NCBI RefSeq assembly: GCF_001968825.1
Contig: NZ_MIEU01000016.1
Coordinates: forward strand, 124,001-188,000
Direction: 5' to 3'
Source: Tersicoccus sp. Bi-70
GTDB taxonomy: Bacteria > Actinomycetota > Actinomycetes > Actinomycetales > Micrococcaceae
Length of the DNA stretch: 64,000 nucleotides
Within the stretch, counting starts at the first letter, position 1, and each line of letters begins with the position of its first letter. The notes beneath the pieces are model-generated. The model was not told the DNA's origin. It worked only from the letters and a program-made list of their open reading frames with translations, and did no database searches. The position numbers and the translations under genes were made by a program. This document shows positions 23 to 12,249 of this stretch, piece by piece.

Positions 23-847
23 CTAGCGGCCGGTGTCCGCGCGAGCGACGACGGCGCGGGCGTGCCGCAGGATCGGCTCGTCGATCATGGCGCCACGCCA
101 CGAGAACACCCCGGGCCGGTGCTCGGCCTCGGCGAGCAGCTCGCGGGCGTCGGCCACCTGCTGCTCGGACGGCGCGAAGGCCGCGCGAACGGCCGCCACC
201 TGGGCAGGGTGGATGCACGCCTTGGCAGCGAATCCGGTGGCGGCGGCGTCCTCGCATTCGTCGGTGAGCCCGGCCGTGTCCTCGATCGCGGTGTAGACGG
301 CGTCGATCGCGGCCTTGCCGTGGGCGCCCGCGGCGAGCAGCACGGTGGAGCGGACGTGCGTGGCGACGGCCCGGTACCGCCCGCCCGCGGTGCGGCTGCC
401 GGTGCCCCCGAGGGAGGCCACGAGGTCCTCGGCACCCCACATCAGGGCGACGACGTTCGGCTCGGCGGCGATGTCCGCGACGGCGAGCGCTCCGGCGGCG
501 GTCTCGATCAGGGCGATCACGTCGTGCCCCGCCAGGGCGCGCACCTGCGCGGTGGACTCCGTCTTGGCGAGCATGACCGTGCGGTAGGGCAGCTCGGCGA
601 GCGCGGCGACGTCGGCGTCGAAGTCCTCGGTGCCGGCGGCGTTCACCCGCACGACGGTGCGCGCCGGATCGAGGGGGTGCTCGGCCAAGTTGGCGCGGGC
701 GGTGTCCTTGTCGACCGGCGCGACGGCGTCCTCCAGGTCGAGGATCACCGCGTCCGCCCGGTCGGCGGCCTTGGCGAAGCGGTCCGTCCGGTCGGCGGGG
801 CAGAACAGCAGGGCGGGCCCGAGGGCGAAGGTCGAGGAGGTCGTCAC
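23..847 (-). CDS. CitE-like beta-hydroxyacyl-CoA lyase
   Basis: HpcH/HpaI aldolase / citrate-lyase-beta family protein, 274 aa. Visible family motifs are the N-terminal ALLFCPADRTDRFAKA, the DLEDAV segment, ALIETAAG and MWGAEDLVASLGG, which supply the Mg2+- and CoA-binding acidic residues. It is the last gene of the branched-chain acid operon. The mycobacterial counterpart in the same gene order (Rv2498c) is known to cleave HMG-CoA and citramalyl-CoA, so a role in the final step of leucine breakdown (acetyl-CoA plus acetoacetate) is inferred. I chose the GTG at 847 because translation further upstream gives a basic, proline-rich stretch unlike the family. This start overlaps by the ends with the upstream oxidoreductase, whose stop is at 858. 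Malyl- or citramalyl-CoA lyase activity is an alternative. Confidence 0.88.
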   Translation of the reverse strand: MTTSSTFALGPALLFCPADRTDRFAKAADRADAVILDLEDAVAPVDKDTARANLAEHPLDPARTVVRVNAAGTEDFDADVAALAELPYRTVMLAKTESTAQVRALAGHDVIALIETAAGALAVADIAAEPNVVALMWGAEDLVASLGGTGSRTAGGRYRAVATHVRSTVLLAAGAHGKAAIDAVYTAIEDTAGLTDECEDAAATGFAAKACIHPAQVAAVRAAFAPSEQQVADARELLAEAEHRPGVFSWRGAMIDEPILRHARAVVARADTGR

Positions 848-857
848 GACGTCGATG

Positions 858-1883
858 CTACGGGCCGGACGTGGGCGTCCGGTCGCCGGCGGGCTCGGCG
901 GCCGCCGCGCGTTCGGACGCCTGGTCGTCGGACGCCGCACCGGACGCCGCGCCGGACGCCTGCTCGTCGGCGATCACCACGACGTTGCCGATCGCGTGCC
1001 CGTCCTCGACGGCGGCGACGGCTTGTTCGGCCTGCGCGAGCGGCCACGTGCCGCTGACGACGGGGCTGAACACCCCCGCGGCGATGGCCTCGGCGATCGC
1101 GGTGAAGACGGCCGTCGTGCGCCGGCGCGTGACGCCGGAGCCGCCGAGTCCGGTGGCCAGCTGCGGTGCGGCACCGCTGCGGATCGCGCCCCGGTCGCGG
1201 ACCAGGGCGGCCGCCTCGCGCAGCACGTCCCCACCGACCAGGTCGATCACGCCGTCGACGCGTCCGTCGGTGGTCAGCTCGCGTACGCGGTCGGTCCATC
1301 CGTCGCCGGAGACGACGTGCACCGCGCCCAGGTCCTCGACGAGCTGCCGTTTGCCCGCGGACGCGACGCCGATCACGGTCAGCCCGCGGGCGACCCCGAT
1401 GGCGGAGGCCGCGGAGCCCACGCCGCCGCCGGCGCCGAGCACCAGCAGGATGGAGCCGGCGGCGAGGTCGAGCTCGTCCAGGGCGTCCCACGCGGTGCCG
1501 ACGGAGACGGGGATGCACGTGGCCTGCTCGGGCGACACTCCGTCCGGCCGGCGAGCGACGCTCTCGGCGGTGAGGAGCACGAGGTCGGCGAGGGTGCCGG
1601 TGCCGGCGGCCGCGGCGCCGAACACGGCGTCGCCGGGCGCCCAGCCCTCGACGCCGTCACCGACCGTGACGACGTCCCCCGCCGCCTCCCGGCCGATCGC
1701 CATGGGGAACCGGACGTCGAAGGCACCCTGGCGACCGCCGCTGCGCACCTTGACGTCGCCGGGGTTGACGCCGGAGGCGGCCATGCGGACGAGGAGCTGT
1801 CCGGGTCCGGGCACGGGTACCGGGACGTCGACGTGCGCCGTCACCTCGGGGCCGCCGTGAGCGGAGAACGCGAAGGCGTGCAT
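858..1883 (-). CDS. Zinc-free quinone oxidoreductase-like MDR enzyme
   Basis: Medium-chain dehydrogenase/reductase of the NADPH:quinone oxidoreductase type, 341 aa. The N-terminal GroES-like domain contains VRMAASGVNPGDVKVRSG. The Rossmann domain contains LVLGAGGGVGSAASAIGVARG, the NADPH loop of zeta-crystallin-like enzymes. No zinc-ligand cysteine cluster is visible. The ATG at 1883 overlaps the stop of the upstream MaoC gene as TGATG, so the two are translationally coupled. The C-terminus carries an extra alanine- and serine-rich tail. The gene sits between maoC and citE, a position empty in the comparable mycobacterial locus. It may reduce an enoyl-CoA or quinone intermediate, but the substrate is unknown. 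Confidence 0.85.
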   Translation of the reverse strand: MHAFAFSAHGGPEVTAHVDVPVPVPGPGQLLVRMAASGVNPGDVKVRSGGRQGAFDVRFPMAIGREAAGDVVTVGDGVEGWAPGDAVFGAAAAGTGTLADLVLLTAESVARRPDGVSPEQATCIPVSVGTAWDALDELDLAAGSILLVLGAGGGVGSAASAIGVARGLTVIGVASAGKRQLVEDLGAVHVVSGDGWTDRVRELTTDGRVDGVIDLVGGDVLREAAALVRDRGAIRSGAAPQLATGLGGSGVTRRRTTAVFTAIAEAIAAGVFSPVVSGTWPLAQAEQAVAAVEDGHAIGNVVVIADEQASGAASGAASDDQASERAAAAEPAGDRTPTSGP

Positions 1884-2461
1884 CAGGCCTTCGCCGACCC
1901 GGCGTTCTCGTGCCGCTGGTGGGCCTCCTCGCACCAGATCAGCACCGAGCGGGTCGCGACGGCCACCACGGCACCGGTCTGGTTGCGCGCGGTGTGCTTG
2001 AGCGTGACGATCCCCTGCCCGGGCCGGCTCTGCGAGAGCCGTTTGCCGACGACGACGGTCGACGCGTACAGGGTGTCGCCGTGGAAGACCGGGGCGGGGA
2101 ACTCGACCGCTTCGAAGCCGAGGTTGGCGACGATGGTGCCCTCCGTCAGCTGCGCCACCGACAGGCCGACCAGCAGCGAGAGGGTGAACATCGAGTTGAC
2201 CAGGCGCCGGCCGAACGGCTGGCTGGCGGCGAAGTGCTCGTCCAGGTGCAGCGACTGGCTGTTGCCCGAGAGCGTCGTGAAGAGGACGTCGTCGGCCTCG
2301 GTGATGGTGCGGCCGGGTCGGTGCTCATAGACCACCCCGGCCCGGTACTCCTCGAAGTACAGGCCGCGCTGCCGCACCGCCTCGGTGATGGGGATGGCCC
2401 CGGTCGGCAGGCGCCCGTCGTCGCGGGGGTCGGTGATGATCCGGTCCGTCGTCATGCTCAC
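1883..2461 (-). CDS. MaoC-family (R)-enoyl-CoA hydratase
   Basis: MaoC-like hot-dog fold dehydratase, 192 aa. The hydratase motif region LSGNSQSLHLDEHFA carries the catalytic Asp/His-type residues (N, H, D), followed by ASQPFGRRLVNSMF. The start is GTG at 2461, overlapping the preceding stop as GTGA; an ATG two codons later is possible. In the equivalent mycobacterial operon the homologue (Rv2499c) is proposed to hydrate methylglutaconyl-CoA to (R)-HMG-CoA ahead of the CitE-like lyase. The same role is inferred here from gene order and family. Confidence 0.86.
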   Translation of the reverse strand: MSMTTDRIITDPRDDGRLPTGAIPITEAVRQRGLYFEEYRAGVVYEHRPGRTITEADDVLFTTLSGNSQSLHLDEHFAASQPFGRRLVNSMFTLSLLVGLSVAQLTEGTIVANLGFEAVEFPAPVFHGDTLYASTVVVGKRLSQSRPGQGIVTLKHTARNQTGAVVAVATRSVLIWCEEAHQRHENAGSAKA

Positions 2462-3666
2462 TCCAGTCCCAGCGAGCGGGCGATGAGCATCTGCTGCACC
2501 TCCGTGGTCCCCTCGCCGATCTCCAGGATCTTGGAATCACGATAGTGCCGTGCGACGACGAACTCGTTGATGAAACCGTATCCGCCGAAGATCTGGGTCG
2601 CGTCGCGGGCGTTGTCCATGGCGGCCTCGCCCGCGACGATCTTGGCGATCGAGGCCTGCGTCTTGAACGGCTTGCCCGCCGTCATCCGGGCGGCCGCGTC
2701 CCGCCACGCGAGCCGGGCGGTGTGCACCCGCACCTGCATGCGGGCGATCTTGAAGGCGATCGCCTGGTGGTGGCCGATCGCCGAGCCGAAGGCCTGCCGC
2801 TCCTTCGCGTACCGGACGGAGGCGTCCAGGCAGCCCTGCGCGGCACCGGTGCCGAGCGCGGCGATGGCGATGCGGCCCTCGTCCAGCGTGTGCACGAAGT
2901 TGGCGTAGCCGCGGCCGCGCTCCCCGAGCAGGTTGGCCTCCGGCACCCGCACGTCGGTCAGGGTCAGCGGGTGGGTGTCGGAGGAGTTCCAGCCGACCTT
3001 GTCGTACGCCTTCTCGGCACGGAAGCCCTCGGTCGGCACCGGGACCAGCAGGGTGGAGATCTCCTTGCGTTCTCTGCCCTTCCGGTCCACTCCCGTCCCC
3101 GTGACCGCCGTGACCGTGACCAGCCGGGTGATGTCCGTGCCGGAGTTGGTGATGAACTCCTTGCTGCCGTTGATCACCCACTGCCCGTCCTCGAGCCGGG
3201 CCGTGGTGCGCGTACCGGACGCGTCGGAGCCGGCCTCCGGCTCGGTCAGCCCGAAGCCGGCAAGTGCACGGCCGGCGGCCAGGTCCGGCACCCACGCGGC
3301 CTTCTGCTCCTCGGTGCCGTAGTGCAGCAGCGGGGAGATGCCGAGCGACACACCCGCCTCGAGGGTGATGGCGATGGACTGGTCGACGCGGGCGAGCTCC
3401 TCGATGGCCACGCACAGGGCCGTGTGGTCTCCGCCCATGCCGCCGTACTCCTCCGGCACGGGCAGACCGAACAGGCCGAGCTCGCCCATCTGGGCGACCA
3501 CCTCGTACGGGAAGGTGTGCGCGGCGTCGTGGGTGACGGCGGCGGGCGCGACGACGGTCTGCGCGAAGTCCCGGACCATCGCGGCCAGGGCCGCCAGCTC
3601 CTCGCTCAGCCCGACGGTGCTCAGGTCCGTGTCGGCCTTGCCGGTGCTGTTCAGGACGTCAGTCAT
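2458..3666 (-). CDS. Branched/short-chain acyl-CoA dehydrogenase
   Basis: FAD-dependent acyl-CoA dehydrogenase, 402 aa, oxidising the acyl-CoA made by the branched-chain keto-acid dehydrogenase. Recognisable segments are [52 protein letters not shown] and [13 protein letters not shown]. The catalytic base is the canonical C-terminal glutamate in [11 protein letters not shown]. Isovaleryl-CoA dehydrogenases carry Gly or Ala there and use a different Glu, so an AcdH/FadE19-type enzyme of broad branched specificity fits better. The ATG at 3666 overlaps the upstream carboxylase stop by 8 bp. Reading further upstream adds only a proline- and arginine-rich shadow of that gene. Confidence 0.92.
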
Positions 3667-5971
3667 CAGAGTTCTCCTCGTGCGGGGTGGTCTCGGAGTG
3701 GGTGTCGCCGGACGTGCCGGCCGGTGTGGCGGCGGGTGTGATGGCCGCTGCGACGTCGGCGAGGACCGTGCCGGCGGCGACACGGTCACCCACCGCGACG
3801 TGCACGGCGACGACGCCGTCGACGGGCGCGGTGAGGGTGTGCTCCATCTTCATGGCCTCGACGATCACGAGCGGGGCACCGACGTCGACGGTGGCCCCGG
3901 CCTCGGCGAGGACGGCCACGACGGTGCCGGGCATCGGGCTGCGCACCTCCGGGTCGGCGCCGGTGGCCGCGCGTACCGCCCGGGCCCGCGCGGCGGCCAG
4001 GGCGGCGCCCCGGTCGATGCGGTGCAGGGTGACGGTGTGCGGGGTGGACGTGTGCGGAGTGGACGACGCGTCGCCGTCCGTGCCCCCGTGGGCGTACACG
4101 GCATCCCCGGCGTCGAGCACGCGCCACGGGCCGGTGGGCGTGATGGGATCCCCGTCGACCAACACGACGGACCCGGCCCCGGGAGAGGCCTGCGTGACGG
4201 CGACGACGCGGTCGTTGCCGTCACCGTCACGCAGGCGCAGGCGGTCGACCCGACCACCGAGCCGGAACCCGGCGGCGCGGGACCAGGCCCCTGCCGCCGT
4301 CGTCTCCGGCGTTCCCCCCAGCGTGCGGGACCGGGACGGCCCGGCACCGGAGAACACGTCGCCGTCGGAAGACTCGTGGCCGTCCCCCGTCCCATGGTTC
4401 AGTGCGGCGCCGTCCGCCGAGCGCGCGTGCGCGGCCTGATCATCGGACCGGTCCGCGAGCAGGGCGACGGCGATACCGGCGACGTCGGCGTCGCCCGGAC
4501 GCCAGCCGGTCAGCTGCTCCAGGCTCCGGTCGATCAGACCGGTGTCCAGGTCGCCGGCCCGCACCGCCGGATGGGCGATCAGCGCCTGGAGGGCGTCGAC
4601 GTTGGTGCCCACCCCGAACACCACCGTGCCGGCGAGCGCGGCGGCGAGCCGGTCGAGGGCCTGCCCGCGGTCGGCCCCGTGGGCGATGATCTTGGCGAGC
4701 ATCGGGTCGTAGTCGGTGCCGACGACGGTGCCGGGCAGCAGGGAACTGTCGACCCGGACGCCCGGCCCGGTGGGCTCGTTCAGGGCGAGCACGGTGCCCG
4801 CGGTGGGCAGGAACCCCGCGGCGGGGTCCTCCGCGTAGAGCCGGGCCTCGACGGCATGGCCGGTGAGGGTGACGTCGTCCTGCCCGATCCGCAGCGGATG
4901 CCCGGCGGCGATGCGCACCTGCTCCTCGACCAGGTCCAGCCCGGTGATCATCTCGGTGATCGGGTGCTCGACCTGCAGCCGGGTGTTCATCTCGAGGAAG
5001 TGGAACCGGTCGGGTTCGTCGGCGGAGACGATGAACTCGACCGTGCCCGCCCCGCGGTAGTCCACGCTCGCGGCGGCCCGGCAAGCGGCGGCGCCGAGCT
5101 CGGCCCGGGTCGCGGCCGAGATGAGCGGCGACGGCGCCTCCTCGATCACCTTCTGGTGGCGCCGCTGCAGGGAGCACTCGCGCTCCCCCAGGTGCAGCAC
5201 CGTGCCGTGCTCGTCGGCGAGGACCTGCACCTCGATGTGCCGCGGGGAGGTGATGAGCCGTTCGAGCAGCAGGGTGTCGTCCCCGAAGGCCGCGGCGGCG
5301 GTCCGGCGGGCCGTGGCCAGCGCCGCGGGAAGCGCGGTGGCCTCCGTGACGGCGACCATGCCCTTGCCGCCGCCACCGGCCGAGGGCTTGACCAGCAGCG
5401 GGTAGCCGATGCGGTCCGCCGCGGCGAGCAGACGTCCGTCGCGGTCGCCGTCGCCGTCGTCGGTGTGCGCCTCCGCGGCGAGATCCGTGTCGTCGACGCC
5501 GGGCACGACGGGAACGCCGTGCGCGGCGACGTGCGCCTTCGCCCGGATCTTGTCGGCCATCGTCTCCAGGGCCCGCTTGCCGGGGCCGATCAGCACGATG
5601 CCGGCGCGCTCGCACGCGTCGGCGAGCTCGGGGTTCTCGGAGAGGAACCCGTAGCCGGGGTGGATCGCCTCGGCGCCGGTGTCCTTCGCCGCACGGATGA
5701 CGGCGTCGACGTCGAGGTAGCTCAGCCGGGCGGCCGCGGGCCCGATCAGGACGGCCCGGTCGGCCTCGCGCACGTGCCGGGCGTCGGCGTCGGCCTCGCT
5801 GTAGACGGCGACGGCCTCGATGCCGAGCCGGTGCAGGGTGGCGATGACGCGGCAGGCGATCTCGCCGCGGTTGGCGACGAGCACGGTCGAGAAGAGCCGC
5901 TCGGTGGAGGACTCGGCCGCCGCGAGCTCGGCAGTGGCAGTGGCAGGGAATCGGGTGGTCAATGGGCTCAC
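3659..5971 (-). CDS. accA1: Acyl-CoA carboxylase alpha chain (biotin carboxylase + BCCP)
   Basis: Biotin-dependent carboxylase alpha subunit, 770 aa. The biotin carboxylase domain starts near residue 30 with [17 protein letters not shown]. The ATP-grasp loop [14 protein letters not shown] and the [15 protein letters not shown] core follow. The C-terminal biotinyl domain carries EAMKMEHTL, where the middle Lys is biotinylated. A Gly/Asp/Ser-rich linker of about 200 residues separates the two and makes the protein longer than the usual 650-670 aa. The start is GTG at 5971, overlapping the accD stop as GTGA. Context argues for 3-methylcrotonyl-CoA carboxylase of leucine breakdown; propionyl- or geranyl-CoA carboxylase is an alternative. 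Confidence 0.93.
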
Positions 5972-7587
5972 ATCCGGAACAGGCCGAAGCGGTGGTCGTC
6001 GGGCAGCGGGGTCCGGCTGACGACGTCGAGCGCGAGACCGAGCACGGTGCGGGTGTCGGCCGGGTCGATCACGCCGTCGTCCCACAGTCGGGCAGTCGAG
6101 TACCAGGGGCTGCCCTGCTGCTCGTACTGCTCGATCACCGGCTCGGTCAGGGCCCGCTCGTCCTCGGCGGTGAACTCCTGGCCCGCGGCGGCGGCGGCGT
6201 CGCGGCGCACCGTGGCCAGCACGGACGCGGCCTGCGCAGAGCCCATCACCGAGATCCGGGCGTTCGGCCACATCCACAGGAATCGCGGCCCGTAGGCCCG
6301 GCCGCACATCGAGTAGTTGCCGGCCCCGAAGGAGCCGCCGATGATCACGGTCAGCTTCGGCACGCGGCAGGTGGCGACGGCGGTGACCATCTTGGCGCCG
6401 TGCTTGGCGATGCCGCCGGCCTCCGCGTCCGCGCCGACCATGAAGCCGGTGATGTTCTGCAGGAAGATCAGCGGAATGCCGCGCTGGTCGCACAGCTCGA
6501 TGAAGTGGGCGCCCTTCATCGCCGACTCGCTGAACAACACGCCGTTGTTGGCGACGATGCCCACCGGGTGGCCGTGCAGGTGCGCGAACCCGGTGACGAG
6601 GGTGGAGCCGTAGTCGCGCTTGAACTCGCTGAACGCGCTGCCGTCGACCAGCCGGGCGATCACCTCGCGCACGTCGTACGGCATGGTCGTGTCCGCGGCG
6701 ACGACGGCGGTCAGGGTCCCGGGGTCGACGGCGGGTTCGACCGGTTCCCGCACGGTCCACGCCGGGGAGGGCGGGTCCGGCAGGGTGGCGACGATGTCGC
6801 GCAGGATCTGCAGGGCGTGGGTGTCGTCGTCGGCGAGGTGGTCCGCCACCCCGGACGTGCTCGTGTGCAGGCGACCGCCGCCGAGCTGCTCCGCGGTGAT
6901 GTCCTCGCCGATCGCGGCCTTCACCAGTGGCGGCCCGCCGAGGAAGATGGTGCCCTGCTCGGCGACGATGACGGTCTCGTCGCTCATCGCCGGCACGTAG
7001 GCACCGCCCGCGGTGCAGGAGCCGAGGACGGCCGAGAGCTGCGGGATCCGCGCGGCGGAGAGGTTGGCCTGGTTGTAGAAGATCCGGCCGAAGTGCTCCC
7101 GGTCGGGGAACACCTCGTCCTGCAGCGGCAGGAACGCGCCACCGGAATCGACGAGGTACAGGCAGGGCAGCCGGTTCTCCAGCGCCACCTGCTGGGCGCG
7201 CAGATGCTTGGTCACCGTCATCGGGTAGTAGGTGCCGCCCTTGACGGTCGCGTCGTTGCACACGACCATCACCGGCCGCCCGGCGACCAGCCCGATGCCG
7301 GTGATCAGGCCGGCGCCGGGGCACGCGTCGTCGTACATCCCGGTCGCGGCCAGCGGCGAGAGCTCGAGGAAGGGGCTGCCCTCGTCGAGCAGCTGCTCGA
7401 CCCGTTCCCGGGGCAGCAGCTTGCCGCGGTCCCGGTGCCGCTTCCGGGCGGCCGCGGAGCCCCCGAGTGCCGCGGCCCCGAGCCGACGGCGCAGTTCCGC
7501 CGCGAGCTCGGCGTGCGCGGCGGTGCGCCGGGCGAGGACCGGGTCGGCCGGGTGAGCGGCGTCGAGGGTGCTGGTCAGGGTGTCCAT
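5968..7587 (-). CDS. accD1: Acyl-CoA carboxylase beta chain (carboxyltransferase)
   Basis: Carboxyltransferase subunit, 539 aa, partner of the alpha chain immediately downstream. N-terminal motifs are [20 protein letters not shown] and [20 protein letters not shown]. The oxyanion-hole regions [17 protein letters not shown] and [20 protein letters not shown] are present. The latter with [15 protein letters not shown] is typical of methylcrotonyl-CoA carboxyltransferases (MccB/AccD1). The ATG lies 10 nt after the E2 stop, so both subunits follow bkdC in one message. Confidence 0.94.
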
Positions 7588-7597
7588 GGGCGCCCGG

Positions 7598-9328
7598 TCA
7601 GATCAGCGTCAGCGTGACGCCGGGAGCGCGCAGGACGGCGCCGACGTCGGCGAGGAACCGGGAACCGGCCTCCCCGTCGACGAGCCGGTGGTCGAAGGAC
7701 AGGCTCAGGGTCATGACGTCGCGCAGGGCGATCTGTCCCTGGTACTCCCACGGCGTGCGGCGGACCTGCCCGGTGGCGAGGATGCCCGCCTCTCCCGGGT
7801 TGAGGATCGGCGTACCCGCGTCCACGCCGAACACGCCGACGTTGGAGAGGGTGAACGTGCCCCCGCTCAGGGCCGCGGGCGTCGTCCGGCCGTCGCGCGC
7901 GGCGCTCGTGAGGTCGCGCAGCGCACCGGTGAGGGTCCGCAGGTCCAGGCCGTCGGCGTCCTTGATGTTCGGCACGACGAGCCCGCGCGGCGTCGCAGCG
8001 GCGATGCCGAGGTTGACGTAGCCGAACCGCACGATCTCCCCCGCGGCCTCGTCCCAGCGGGAGTTGAGCTCGGGGTGCCGCCGCAGGGCGACCAGGACGG
8101 CCTTGCTGACCAGCGCCGTCATCGTCGGCCGGTCCTCGGCCCACGCCCGGTCGGCGCGCAGCGACGCCAGCAGGGCCACGCTCTCCGTCACGTCGACCGT
8201 GAGGAACTCGGTGACGTGCGGCGCGGTGAAGGCACTCGTGACCATCGCGGCCGCGGTGTGCTTGCGCACGCCGCGGATGGGTTCGCGGGTCTCACGCGCC
8301 CCGGCCTCGCGAATGCCGATTCCACCGACGGGCGACAATGCGCCCGACACGGAGACCGGCGCGGCTGCCGATGGCGCGGCCGGTGCCGCCGGAGGAGCGG
8401 ACGGGGTGGCGACGGGCGTTGCCGTCCCCGCGCGGGAGGCGGTCGTGACGTCGTCCCGGGTGACCAGGCCGCCGCGGCCGGTACCGGTCAGCGACTCGAG
8501 GTCGACGCCGAGGTCCCGCGCGAGCTTGCGGACGATGGGGGTGCTGTGGCGCCGTTCGCGGTGGCCGTCGTGGCCGGCAAGTGCAGTACCGTCCTGCCCC
8601 GGTCGCGGCAGGTCGGGGGCGCCCGGCAGCGGGGGGATCTCGGGCCCTCCCGGCAGCGGCGGGACCTCCGGGCCGTTCGGTGCGAGCGGCTCGTCGGGCC
8701 GGCCGGGCAGTGGCGGGACCTCCGGCCCGCCCGGGCGCAGCGGTTCGTCCGGCGTCTCCGGGCTCGTCGGCGCGTCCGGCGTGTGGCCGGGCAGCGGAAC
8801 GCCGGGTTCCTCCGGCCGCCGGCCGGGATCGGGCTGCCCGGTGTCGGGCTGATCGGTGTCGGGCTGGTCGGGATCGCGCGGCACCCGCGGCACGTCCGGC
8901 ACGCCGGGCTGGCCGGGCTCGTCATCGGGTGCCCCGGTCGACCCGTTCGCCACCCCGGCGAGCGCGACGTTCCCGCGGCGGCGCCGGGCGGGCCGACCGG
9001 TCCCGGCGGGCGCAGCCCCGTAGCCGACCAGGGTCGGCTCGCGACGCGCCGATCCGGTCCCCGCACCGTCCGAGCCCGCGCCGTCGGCGGTGGGCACGTC
9101 GATGGCGAGGATCGGGGTGCCGACGTCGACGGTCGCGCCCTCGGCCTGCAGCAGGCGCTCGACGACGCCGTCCCACGGGCTGGGCAGCTGGACGACGGCC
9201 TTCGCGGTCTCGACCTCAGCGATCACCTGGTTCAGGCTCACGCTCTGCCCCTCGGCGACCTTCCAGCTGACGATCTCGGACTCGGTCAGGCCCTCGCCGA
9301 GGTCCGGCAGCGCGAATTCACGGATCAC
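7598..9328 (-). CDS. bkdC: Branched-chain 2-oxo acid dehydrogenase E2 (acyltransferase)
   Basis: Dihydrolipoyl acyltransferase core of the BCKDH complex, 576 aa. One lipoyl domain (residues 1-76) has the lipoylated Lys43 in EVETAKA. A long linker (about 76-262) contains proline-rich tandem units ([25 protein letters not shown]). The E3/E1-binding domain lies at about 264-298 ([18 protein letters not shown]), and the catalytic domain ends with [11 protein letters not shown], the HxxxDG active site near residue 547. The start is GTG, overlapping the E1-beta stop as GTGA. No E3 (lipoamide dehydrogenase) is encoded in the window, so it must be shared from elsewhere. Confidence 0.95.
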
Positions 9329-10371
9329 GAGGCAGCTCCGATCAGGGAGGAGGTCGACGAGCCGGCGAGCGCGTCGAAACGGGACCCGGTCTGGGAGTTG
9401 TCGCGGCCGACGAGCCGGTCGACGGCGTCGAGGATGCGGTCCAGGTCGGGCAGGTGGTGGTCCTCGAGCCGGGCCGGCGGGTACGGGATGTCGAACCCGG
9501 TGACCCGTTCGGGCGGCGCCTGCAGCGAGTAGAAGCAGCGGGTGGTGAGGATCGCGACGATCTCCGCGCCGAGGCCGCCGAACTCGCCGGCCTCATGGGT
9601 GACGAGCAGCCGGCCCGTCTTCCGCACCGACGCCTCCAGGGTCGCCAGGTCGAGGGGGTAGAGCGAGCGCAGGTCGACGACCTCGAGGTCGATGCCCTCG
9701 TCCTCGGCCGCCGTGGCCGCGTCCAGCGCGGTGGCGACGAGCGGACCGTAGGCGATCACGGTGGCATCGGTCCCGGGTCGCACGACCGCGGCCCGGGTCA
9801 GGTCGAGCTGCCGCGTGTCGTCGACCTCGCCCTTGCCCCAATAGCGGCGCTTGGGCTCGAGGAAGACGACCGGGTCGTCCGAGGCGATCGCGGCACGCAG
9901 GGTGCTGTACGCCTCCTGCGGGGTGGACGCGCTGACCACCCGGAGTCCCGCCGTGTGGGCGAAGTAGGCCTCGGGGGACTCCGAGTGGTGTTCCGGGGAG
10001 CCGATGCCGCCGCCGAACGGGATGCGGATGGTCACCGGCAGGCTGACGGCACCGCGGGTGCGGTAGTGCAGCTTGGCCAGGTTGGAGACGATCTGGTCGA
10101 ACGCGGGATAGACGAACCCGTCGAACTGGATCTCGACCACGGGACGAAAGCCACGCATCGCGAGCCCGATCGCGGTGCCGACGATGCCGGACTCCGCGAG
10201 CGGGGTGTCCATCACGCGGTGCTTGCCGAAACGAGCCTGCAGCCCGTCGGTGATCCGGAAGACACCGCCGAGCGCGCCGATGTCCTCCCCCATCAGGACG
10301 GTCTTCGCGTCCCGGTCCAGCTCGGCGGCGAGGGCAGCGTTCAGTGCCCCCGCCATGGTCATGGTGCTCAT
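9325..10371 (-). CDS. bkdB: Branched-chain 2-oxo acid dehydrogenase E1 beta
   Basis: Beta subunit of the TPP-dependent E1 component, 348 aa. The N-terminus MTMAGALNAALAAELDRD and motifs MGEDIGALGGVFRIT, ESGIVGTAIGLAMRG and PFGGGIGSPEHHSESPEAYF are characteristic. The C-terminal transketolase-like domain contains ATVIAYGPLVATALDAA and LLVTHEAGEFGGLGAEI. The ATG overlaps the E1-alpha stop as ATGA. Together with bkdA it decarboxylates the keto acids of valine, leucine and isoleucine and passes the acyl group to BkdC. Confidence 0.95.
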   Translation of the reverse strand: MSTMTMAGALNAALAAELDRDAKTVLMGEDIGALGGVFRITDGLQARFGKHRVMDTPLAESGIVGTAIGLAMRGFRPVVEIQFDGFVYPAFDQIVSNLAKLHYRTRGAVSLPVTIRIPFGGGIGSPEHHSESPEAYFAHTAGLRVVSASTPQEAYSTLRAAIASDDPVVFLEPKRRYWGKGEVDDTRQLDLTRAAVVRPGTDATVIAYGPLVATALDAATAAEDEGIDLEVVDLRSLYPLDLATLEASVRKTGRLLVTHEAGEFGGLGAEIVAILTTRCFYSLQAPPERVTGFDIPYPPARLEDHHLPDLDRILDAVDRLVGRDNSQTGSRFDALAGSSTSSLIGAAS

Positions 10372-11567
10372 GCCCGTGCCCCCGTCGATGCGCCGTGCGT
10401 CGCCCCGCCGTGCCCGGCACCGGCGTCGTCACCCGAGCCGGCGTCGTCCAGCGAGTCCAGGTAGAGCAGGTAGCGGTCGCGCTGGTCCTCGAGCCAGGCG
10501 TCCGGGCTGGACAGGACGTGCTCGAAGAGGCTCTCCGGCGTTGGGTCCGCCATCGACGTGATGCCGGAGCGCAGCCCGGATGCCGCCTCGTCCGCGGCGC
10601 GGGTCGCGGCGGCGTCGAGCGCGTCGACGTCGTACCCCTCGGCCGCGAGCAGGGCCCGGACCCGGGCGAGCGGATCCCGCTGTTCCCACTCGGCGCGCAG
10701 GCCCCGGTCCTCGTAGCGCGTGGGGTCGTCGGCCGTGGTGTGCGGGCCCATCCGGTAGGTGACCGCTTCGATGTAGGAGGGTCCCTGCCCCGCCCGGGCC
10801 CGGGCGAGCGCCCGACGGGTCACCGCGGTCACGGCCAGGACGTCGTTGCCGTCCACCCGCACCGACGGGATGCCGAAACCGGGGGCGCGGTCGGCGATGT
10901 GACCCTGCGCCTGAAGCCCCACCGGCTCGGAGATCGCCCACTGGTTGTTCTGGCAGAAGAAGACGACGGGCGCCCCGAAGCTGGCCGCGAAGACCATCGC
11001 CTCGTTGACGTCGCCCTGGCTGGTCGCTCCGTCCCCGAAGTAGACGATGGCGGCGTCGTCGGACCCCTCGGCCTTGATGCCCATCGCGTACCCGGTGGCG
11101 TGCAGCGTCTGGGCGCCGATGATGATCTGCGGGGTGGCCATCCGGGTGACCGTCGGGTCCCAGCCACAGGAGGCGGCGCCGCGCCACAGGCTGAGGATGT
11201 CCACCGGGTCGACACCGCGGCAGTAGGCGACCCCGTGCTCGCGGTAGCTGGGGAAGATCATGTCCGTGCGGTTCAGCGCACGCCCGGAGCCGATCTGGGC
11301 GGCCTCCTGGCCGGTCAACGGCGGCCACAGGCCGAGTTCGCCCTGCCGCTGCAGGGCGGTCGCCTCGGTGTCGATGCGTCGGATGACGCTCATGTCGATG
11401 TAGAACGCGGCCAGCGCGTCGGCGTCGACGTCCTCGACGAGCGCGTCGAAGACGGGGTTGACCCGGCGTTCACCGGTGGGGCTGATCAGCTGGACGAGGT
11501 CGTCGACGAGCTGGCCGCCCTGGTTGAGGGCATCGAGGATCAGGCTGTTCACGGACACGGCTGACAC
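10368..11567 (-). CDS. bkdA: Branched-chain 2-oxo acid dehydrogenase E1 alpha
   Basis: Alpha subunit of E1, 399 aa, first gene of the operon. The TPP-binding signature runs from YFGDGATSQGDVNEAMVFAA to QNNQWAIS (the GDG...NN pattern). EAVTYRMGPHTTADDPTRY marks the phosphorylation-loop region typical of the family. I used the GTG at 11567; two further in-frame GTG codons follow within 12 nt and no strong ribosome-binding site separates them. The gene is preceded by a promoter and CRP-type operator and is divergent from an Lrp/AsnC regulator. Confidence 0.94.
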   Translation of the reverse strand: MSAVSVNSLILDALNQGGQLVDDLVQLISPTGERRVNPVFDALVEDVDADALAAFYIDMSVIRRIDTEATALQRQGELGLWPPLTGQEAAQIGSGRALNRTDMIFPSYREHGVAYCRGVDPVDILSLWRGAASCGWDPTVTRMATPQIIIGAQTLHATGYAMGIKAEGSDDAAIVYFGDGATSQGDVNEAMVFAASFGAPVVFFCQNNQWAISEPVGLQAQGHIADRAPGFGIPSVRVDGNDVLAVTAVTRRALARARAGQGPSYIEAVTYRMGPHTTADDPTRYEDRGLRAEWEQRDPLARVRALLAAEGYDVDALDAAATRAADEAASGLRSGITSMADPTPESLFEHVLSSPDAWLEDQRDRYLLYLDSLDDAGSGDDAGAGHGGATHGASTGARA

Positions 11568-11640: not shown

Positions 11641-11673
11641 TGTGAACTTACTCACACCAGCCACACAGCGCAA
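11641..11673 (-). promoter_or_regulatory. bkd operon promoter with perfect CRP-type operator
   Basis: On the minus strand TTGCGC (11668-11673), a 17-nt spacer and TAAGTT (11645-11650) form a sigma70-like promoter about 70 nt before bkdA. A perfect CRP/GlxR consensus, TGTGA-N6-TCACA, occupies 11641-11656 and covers the -10 box. Binding there would be expected to repress. Confidence 0.7.
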
Positions 11674-11721
11674 CGGAGGCGCTCGACGTTGAGCATGTCG
11701 CCCAACAGCGGCGCACGTGGC

Positions 11722-11750
11722 TTGGCATTCTTGTGCACAGTGACTAGGTT
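11722..11750 (+). promoter_or_regulatory. Leaderless promoter of the Lrp/AsnC gene
   Basis: TTGGCA (11722-11727), a 17-nt spacer and TAGGTT (11745-11750) precede the ATG at 11758 by 7 nt. Transcription would therefore begin at or next to the start codon, giving a leaderless message. No Shine-Dalgarno sequence is present. Confidence 0.65.
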
Positions 11751-11757
11751 CGCCAGC

Positions 11758-12249
11758 ATGATGCTTGCCGATTCAACCGACCTGCGGATCCTGCGGGACA
11801 TGGTCGTCCACCCGCGCCGCACGGCGGTCGCGATCTCCACCCGGCTGAGGTTGTCCCGGAACACGGTGCAGTCCCGGCTGGGGCGGCTGGAGGAGGGCGG
11901 CGCATTCCTGCCCTTCGCTCACCAGGTGGCCCCGGCCGCGCTGGGCTACCCGCTCACGGCGTTCATGGCGGTACAGGTGCAGCAGCCGGAGCTGGATGCG
12001 ATCGCGGAGGCGTTCGGCCGGATCCCTGAGATCGTGGAGGCCCACGGCACGACCGGCGGGGCAGATCTGCTGGTCCGCGTCGTCGGCGTCGACGCCGAGG
12101 ACCTGTTCCGCATTCACGGGGCGATGCTCGCCTGCCCGGGGGTGATGCGGATCGACACGTCGATCTCGATGCACGAGATCATCGCCCACCGCGTGCTCCC
12201 GCTGATCGAGCAGGGACTGGAACGCGGCGGGGACCGGACCCCCGGGTGA
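11758..12249 (+). CDS. Lrp/AsnC-family transcriptional regulator
   Basis: 163 aa. The N-terminal winged helix-turn-helix (about residues 5-45) contains STRLRLSRNTVQSRLGRLEE. The C-terminal RAM/ligand-binding domain begins at LGYPLTAFMAVQV and ends IAHRVLPLIEQGLERG. It is divergent from the branched-chain acid operon, like BkdR-type regulators of other actinobacteria, so it probably senses a branched-chain amino or keto acid and controls bkd. Two adjacent ATG codons (11758 and 11761) are possible starts; the -10 box spacing favours a leaderless start here. Confidence 0.9.
   Translation: MMLADSTDLRILRDMVVHPRRTAVAISTRLRLSRNTVQSRLGRLEEGGAFLPFAHQVAPAALGYPLTAFMAVQVQQPELDAIAEAFGRIPEIVEAHGTTGGADLLVRVVGVDAEDLFRIHGAMLACPGVMRIDTSISMHEIIAHRVLPLIEQGLERGGDRTPG

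Follow-up and report, generated by a model that had tools for sequence, protein, structure and literature searches.

A predicted GlxR operator overlapping the bkd/leucine-catabolic operon promoter at its -10 box in Micrococcaceae

The stretch of Tersicoccus DNA analysed here (64 kb, 72.6% G+C; hereafter the window) contains a bkd/leucine-catabolic operon that consists of nine genes on the same strand (minus), after which an ECF-sigma-like gene begins. The first gene encodes E1 alpha (bkdA/pdhA-like, 10368..11567; TIGR03181, 414 bits) and is followed by the genes for E1 beta (bkdB-like, 9325..10371) and an E2 acyltransferase (bkdC-like, 7598..9328), both assigned by domain and profile matches. 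The carboxylase genes comprise an acyl-CoA carboxyltransferase (methylcrotonyl-CoA carboxylase beta-like, 5968..7587; Carboxyl_trans, 6.8e-154) and an open frame at 3659..7324 with biotin carboxylase and biotin carrier domains (carboxylase alpha) at residues 478-1190; the predicted real gene is the 3' part of this frame, from about 5900 down. The remaining genes encode an acyl-CoA dehydrogenase (isovaleryl-CoA dehydrogenase-like, 2458..3789, domain and profile matches) and, by domain matches, a MaoC-like hydratase (1883..2461), a zinc-binding alcohol dehydrogenase-like protein (858..1934) and, as the last of the nine, an HpcH/HpaI aldolase (CitE-like, 23..940). We take this set to resemble the leucine-degradation operon of mycobacteria. 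The gene and domain matches support the nine-gene catabolic operon described in the first-pass annotation, and its divergent Lrp-type regulator is likewise supported by an AsnC_trans_reg match (7.8e-14) in the gene opposite bkdA.

The Lrp/AsnC-family regulator (11740..12249, plus strand) is 89% and 88% identical to its closest named relatives in Tersicoccus solisilvae and T. phoenicis, respectively, so the DNA probably comes from a third species of this genus. Its gene probably starts at GTG 11740, which is in frame with a shorter start and is preferred because it restores the -99/-100 register of the relatives. Alignment points to a weak extended -10 element of lrp at 11723..11731 (plus strand; TGG CATTCT, or TGC TAnnnT in relatives), which implies a leaderless lrp mRNA, and the gene probably is leaderless in the relatives as well. 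Two palindromes, approximately 42 bp apart, are probable Lrp sites. The first, TTGAGCATGTCGCCCAA at 11689..11705, keeps the form TGAGCA-N3-TGC across Micrococcaceae and in most Microbacteriaceae, is centred at approximately -59 of the bkd promoter and is the probable candidate site of a BkdR-like activator. The second, TTGTGCACAGTGACTAG at 11731..11747, is a degenerate version identified by alignment (TTGCGCACTATGCAA in relatives) and probably lies over the lrp start codon.

The bkd promoter, TTGCGC-N17-TAAGTT, reads toward the gene that starts at 11567 on the minus strand. The -35 box (TTGCGC, 11668..11673, minus strand) was assigned by promoter reading and by comparison across relatives, and the -10 box (TAAGTT, 11645..11650, minus strand) is supported by the same kind of comparison, with TAnnnT holding its register throughout Micrococcaceae and in the majority of Microbacteriaceae. 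Among loci with the divergent lrp/bkdA pair, TTGnnn-N17-TAnnnT was found in 36/36 from Micrococcaceae and 33/36 from Microbacteriaceae. A generic sigma-70 promoter scan did not score the bkd promoter because its hexamers differ greatly from the E. coli consensus.

The -10 box, 17 nt from TTGCGC, lies within the palindrome TGTGAACTTACTCACA (11641..11656), an overlap that the first-pass annotation had proposed. Its further proposal, a full match to TGTGA-N6-TCACA, also holds, since 10/10 positions agree. This motif is the GlxR consensus of Corynebacterium glutamicum (PMC7999487). Given a predicted bkd start approximately 7 nt past the -10 box, the palindrome would be centred at approximately -10. 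It is the sole match with zero or one mismatch in the whole window, and base composition predicts 0.00002 perfect motifs in the 172-bp lrp-bkdA gap. Across the 3.48-Mb genome, two perfect motifs are present versus one for a reversed-pattern control, and 0.40 are predicted from base composition; a relaxed motif (8-base core) occurs 51 times versus 8 for the control. RNA folding of the leader revealed nothing unusual apart from the palindrome itself (z -1.0). The other perfect motif of the genome (G000, contig C16, 614386-614401; L002:1501-1516) precedes a zinc alcohol (formaldehyde) dehydrogenase-like gene by approximately 130 bp and is also close to where a divergent LigD primase-polymerase-like gene starts.

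Is the palindrome maintained by selection? The upstream regions of Lrp orthologs from relatives were read in register, with counts given as distinct loci that have the divergent lrp/bkdA pair. The palindrome is in register in all 36 Micrococcaceae loci (25 perfect, 10 with one mismatch and 1 with two), and the Lrp proteins of these loci share about 44-100% identity with the one in the window. In the 23 sites of the first genome set, there is hardly any variation in the arms or in the TA of the -10 box, whereas positions 6-8 are variable. A chance origin might be entertained in that palindromic -10 regions sometimes arise and the window overall has no excess of near-matches; however, the retention of the arms in every locus across such divergent Lrp proteins, with positions 6-8 free to vary, rejects this reading, to which we assign a negligible probability.

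The palindrome was found in 0/36 loci of Microbacteriaceae, with at least four mismatches in each. This family (f19) was taken to be Microbacteriaceae because the named Leifsonia loci share the same features. In one of its loci (L068, genome G112), a TGTGA half-site, TGTGAGGCTACGCCTG, lies in register at approximately -100 of lrp and represents either chance or a remnant. The palindrome is absent from Microbacteriaceae though the promoter and the Lrp palindromes are kept, so the arms are part of neither the promoter nor the Lrp sites. The comparison shows that selection acts on the arms in Micrococcaceae and that the promoter and Lrp elements do without them elsewhere. This observation bears on whether the TGTGA palindrome is instead the operator of the divergent Lrp/AsnC regulator. 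Such ownership would suit a palindrome that is flanked by lrp and its presumed target and accompanies this lrp throughout Micrococcaceae. However, it is a different palindrome, TTGAGCA-N3-TGCTCAA, that occurs twice, and the alignment indicates that both this element, TGAGCA-N3-TGC(T/C)C, and the related one over the lrp start remain in most Microbacteriaceae, together with lrp and its target, without TGTGA arms. The TGTGA palindrome occurs only once and equals the GlxR consensus. We therefore reject the Lrp operator reading, which we regard as highly unlikely.

Which protein would recognize the palindrome? The Tersicoccus genome encodes a single cNMP-binding (PF00027) protein, which also has an HTH_Crp_2 domain, and a class III cyclase-like protein. 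The nearest solved relatives of this GlxR ortholog are structures 3i54 and 3d0s of M. tuberculosis CRP, followed by 3r6s, 4byy and 4cyd, which we take to be corynebacterial GlxR. The recognition-helix stretch AQLVGASRETVNKALA is identical between the Tersicoccus GlxR ortholog and M. tuberculosis CRP. A CRP/GlxR ortholog is present in each Micrococcaceae genome tested. In Microbacteriaceae, a search of 60 genera and 25 further genomes of the family detected no CRP/GlxR ortholog and only distant relatives with at most 30% identity. Unlike Microbacteriaceae, almost every other sampled family of the order possesses the ortholog.

The ratio of perfect motifs to reversed controls is 131:19 in Micrococcaceae, 50:5 in other GlxR-bearing families and 181:24 over all GlxR-bearing relatives, and the motif is barely enriched in Microbacteriaceae (44:32). 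Fisher tests on the motif and control sums gave p = 1e-6 and 3e-5, which are descriptive values, the genomes not being independent. Clear enrichment of the motif is confined to lineages with GlxR. These counts also address the idea that the site is owned by another, Micrococcaceae-specific regulator that binds dyads, which would explain why the site is confined to Micrococcaceae when GlxR also occurs in several other families. GlxR-bearing families other than Micrococcaceae nevertheless show enrichment of the same motif, and the GlxR-less Microbacteriaceae hardly do; we find such an owner very improbable.

Three further families (f8, f11 and f13) possess both GlxR and the divergent pair and have no in-register site in any of their 13 loci, indicating that the absence of the site from Microbacteriaceae cannot simply be ascribed to the loss of GlxR. 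The proposal that GlxR loss caused site loss in Microbacteriaceae is weakened accordingly. An operator need not occur wherever its regulator and the divergent pair coexist, but the pattern in these three families limits the argument. In two related f8 loci (L206 and L208), TGTGCTGCGC(A/G)TCACA, with one mismatch, is located 33 bp upstream of lrp; this element, at the lrp promoter rather than that of bkd, is possibly an independent predicted GlxR site. The family contrast rests on few evolutionary events, and its simplest history is probably that the site arose once, at the base of Micrococcaceae, and was strictly conserved thereafter. With somewhat less assurance than we have in the operator itself, we favour a scenario in which an older bkd promoter under Lrp control acquired, once, a near-invariant GlxR operator exactly over its -10 box, which placed branched-chain amino acid breakdown under family-wide cAMP control, and in which the neighbouring Microbacteriaceae lost GlxR and have only Lrp to regulate the same promoter.

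The first-pass annotation had predicted direct CRP/GlxR control of the operon, and as a prediction this is strongly supported by comparison: the site is conserved in register, can be told apart from both promoter and Lrp sites, and matches the consensus of a GlxR ortholog that the genome encodes. We consider it likely that the palindrome is a GlxR operator on the bkd -10 box, where bound cAMP-GlxR would act as a carbon-status brake and Lrp as the activator. In the proposed mechanism, cAMP-GlxR bound at the palindrome would cover the -10 box and exclude RNA polymerase, and carbon status would thereby hold the bkd operon down. From its two palindromes, one at approximately -59 of bkd and the other over the lrp start, Lrp/AsnC would activate bkd and regulate its own gene, with branched-chain amino or keto acids as its presumed inducers, as with Pseudomonas BkdR. 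The binding of GlxR, its signal and the activation of bkd by Lrp are inferred, and repression as the sign of the GlxR effect is deduced from the position of the site over the -10 box. The predicted switch that joins carbon status to branched-chain amino acid breakdown is very probably real.

In addition to acting on bkd, GlxR may influence lrp, the predicted leaderless start of which is approximately 91 bp away. A stronger version of this idea holds that GlxR acts mainly on the divergent lrp, as a class I activator from about -91, or on both promoters, in which case cAMP would raise bkd expression. A position of about -91 is a plausible spacing for class I CRP activation, and the distance from the palindrome to the lrp start is constant (-99/-100 in nearly all loci), while its distance from bkdA differs between loci by well over 100 bp. 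However, the distance from the bkd promoter to lrp is equally constant in Microbacteriaceae, which have no palindrome. The paired Lrp sites thus account for the constant lrp spacing, which is not telling for an effect on lrp. Moreover, a palindrome over the -10 box would block bkd even if GlxR acted on lrp. We therefore regard primary action on lrp as unlikely, although less so than ownership of the site by a regulator other than GlxR, and retain direct control of bkd as the preferred reading.

GlxR operators themselves are already known, and the new element here is a predicted family-wide GlxR operator at a bkd target with unusually clean conservation. In the open-licence literature searched, no report of GlxR or CRP at an actinobacterial bkd operon was found, and CRP function in Micrococcaceae appears to be little studied. 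For a large family, the relatives of Arthrobacter, the prediction offers a testable link from cAMP signalling to the breakdown of branched-chain amino acids. Furthermore, Microbacteriaceae, with the same promoter and neither the regulator nor the site, provide a natural comparison for the addition of a global regulator to a local Lrp switch.

The predicted arrangement can be compared with three known systems. In C. glutamicum, GlxR is a global carbon regulator that binds tightly when it has cAMP, which it needs for this, and aceA is among its repressed targets, which include several carbon genes (PMC7999487, PMC7026483). The C. glutamicum operators resemble the Tersicoccus site in consensus and are recognized by an orthologous regulator with a cAMP-binding domain and an HTH, whereas the predicted target in Micrococcaceae is the bkd/leucine-degradation operon. 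M. tuberculosis CRP (Rv3676; 3i54, 3d0s) is the best solved relative, with the identical recognition-helix stretch, and its binding near a start site is associated with repression (PMC4117774). Pseudomonas BkdR is an inducer-linked Lrp/AsnC activator encoded divergently from the bkd operon (PMC8707732). The Tersicoccus locus has the same divergent pairing of an Lrp/AsnC regulator with bkd; however, it belongs to a different phylum, its operon is larger and includes genes for carboxylase and acyl-CoA dehydrogenase, and its -10 box bears an added predicted CRP-type operator.
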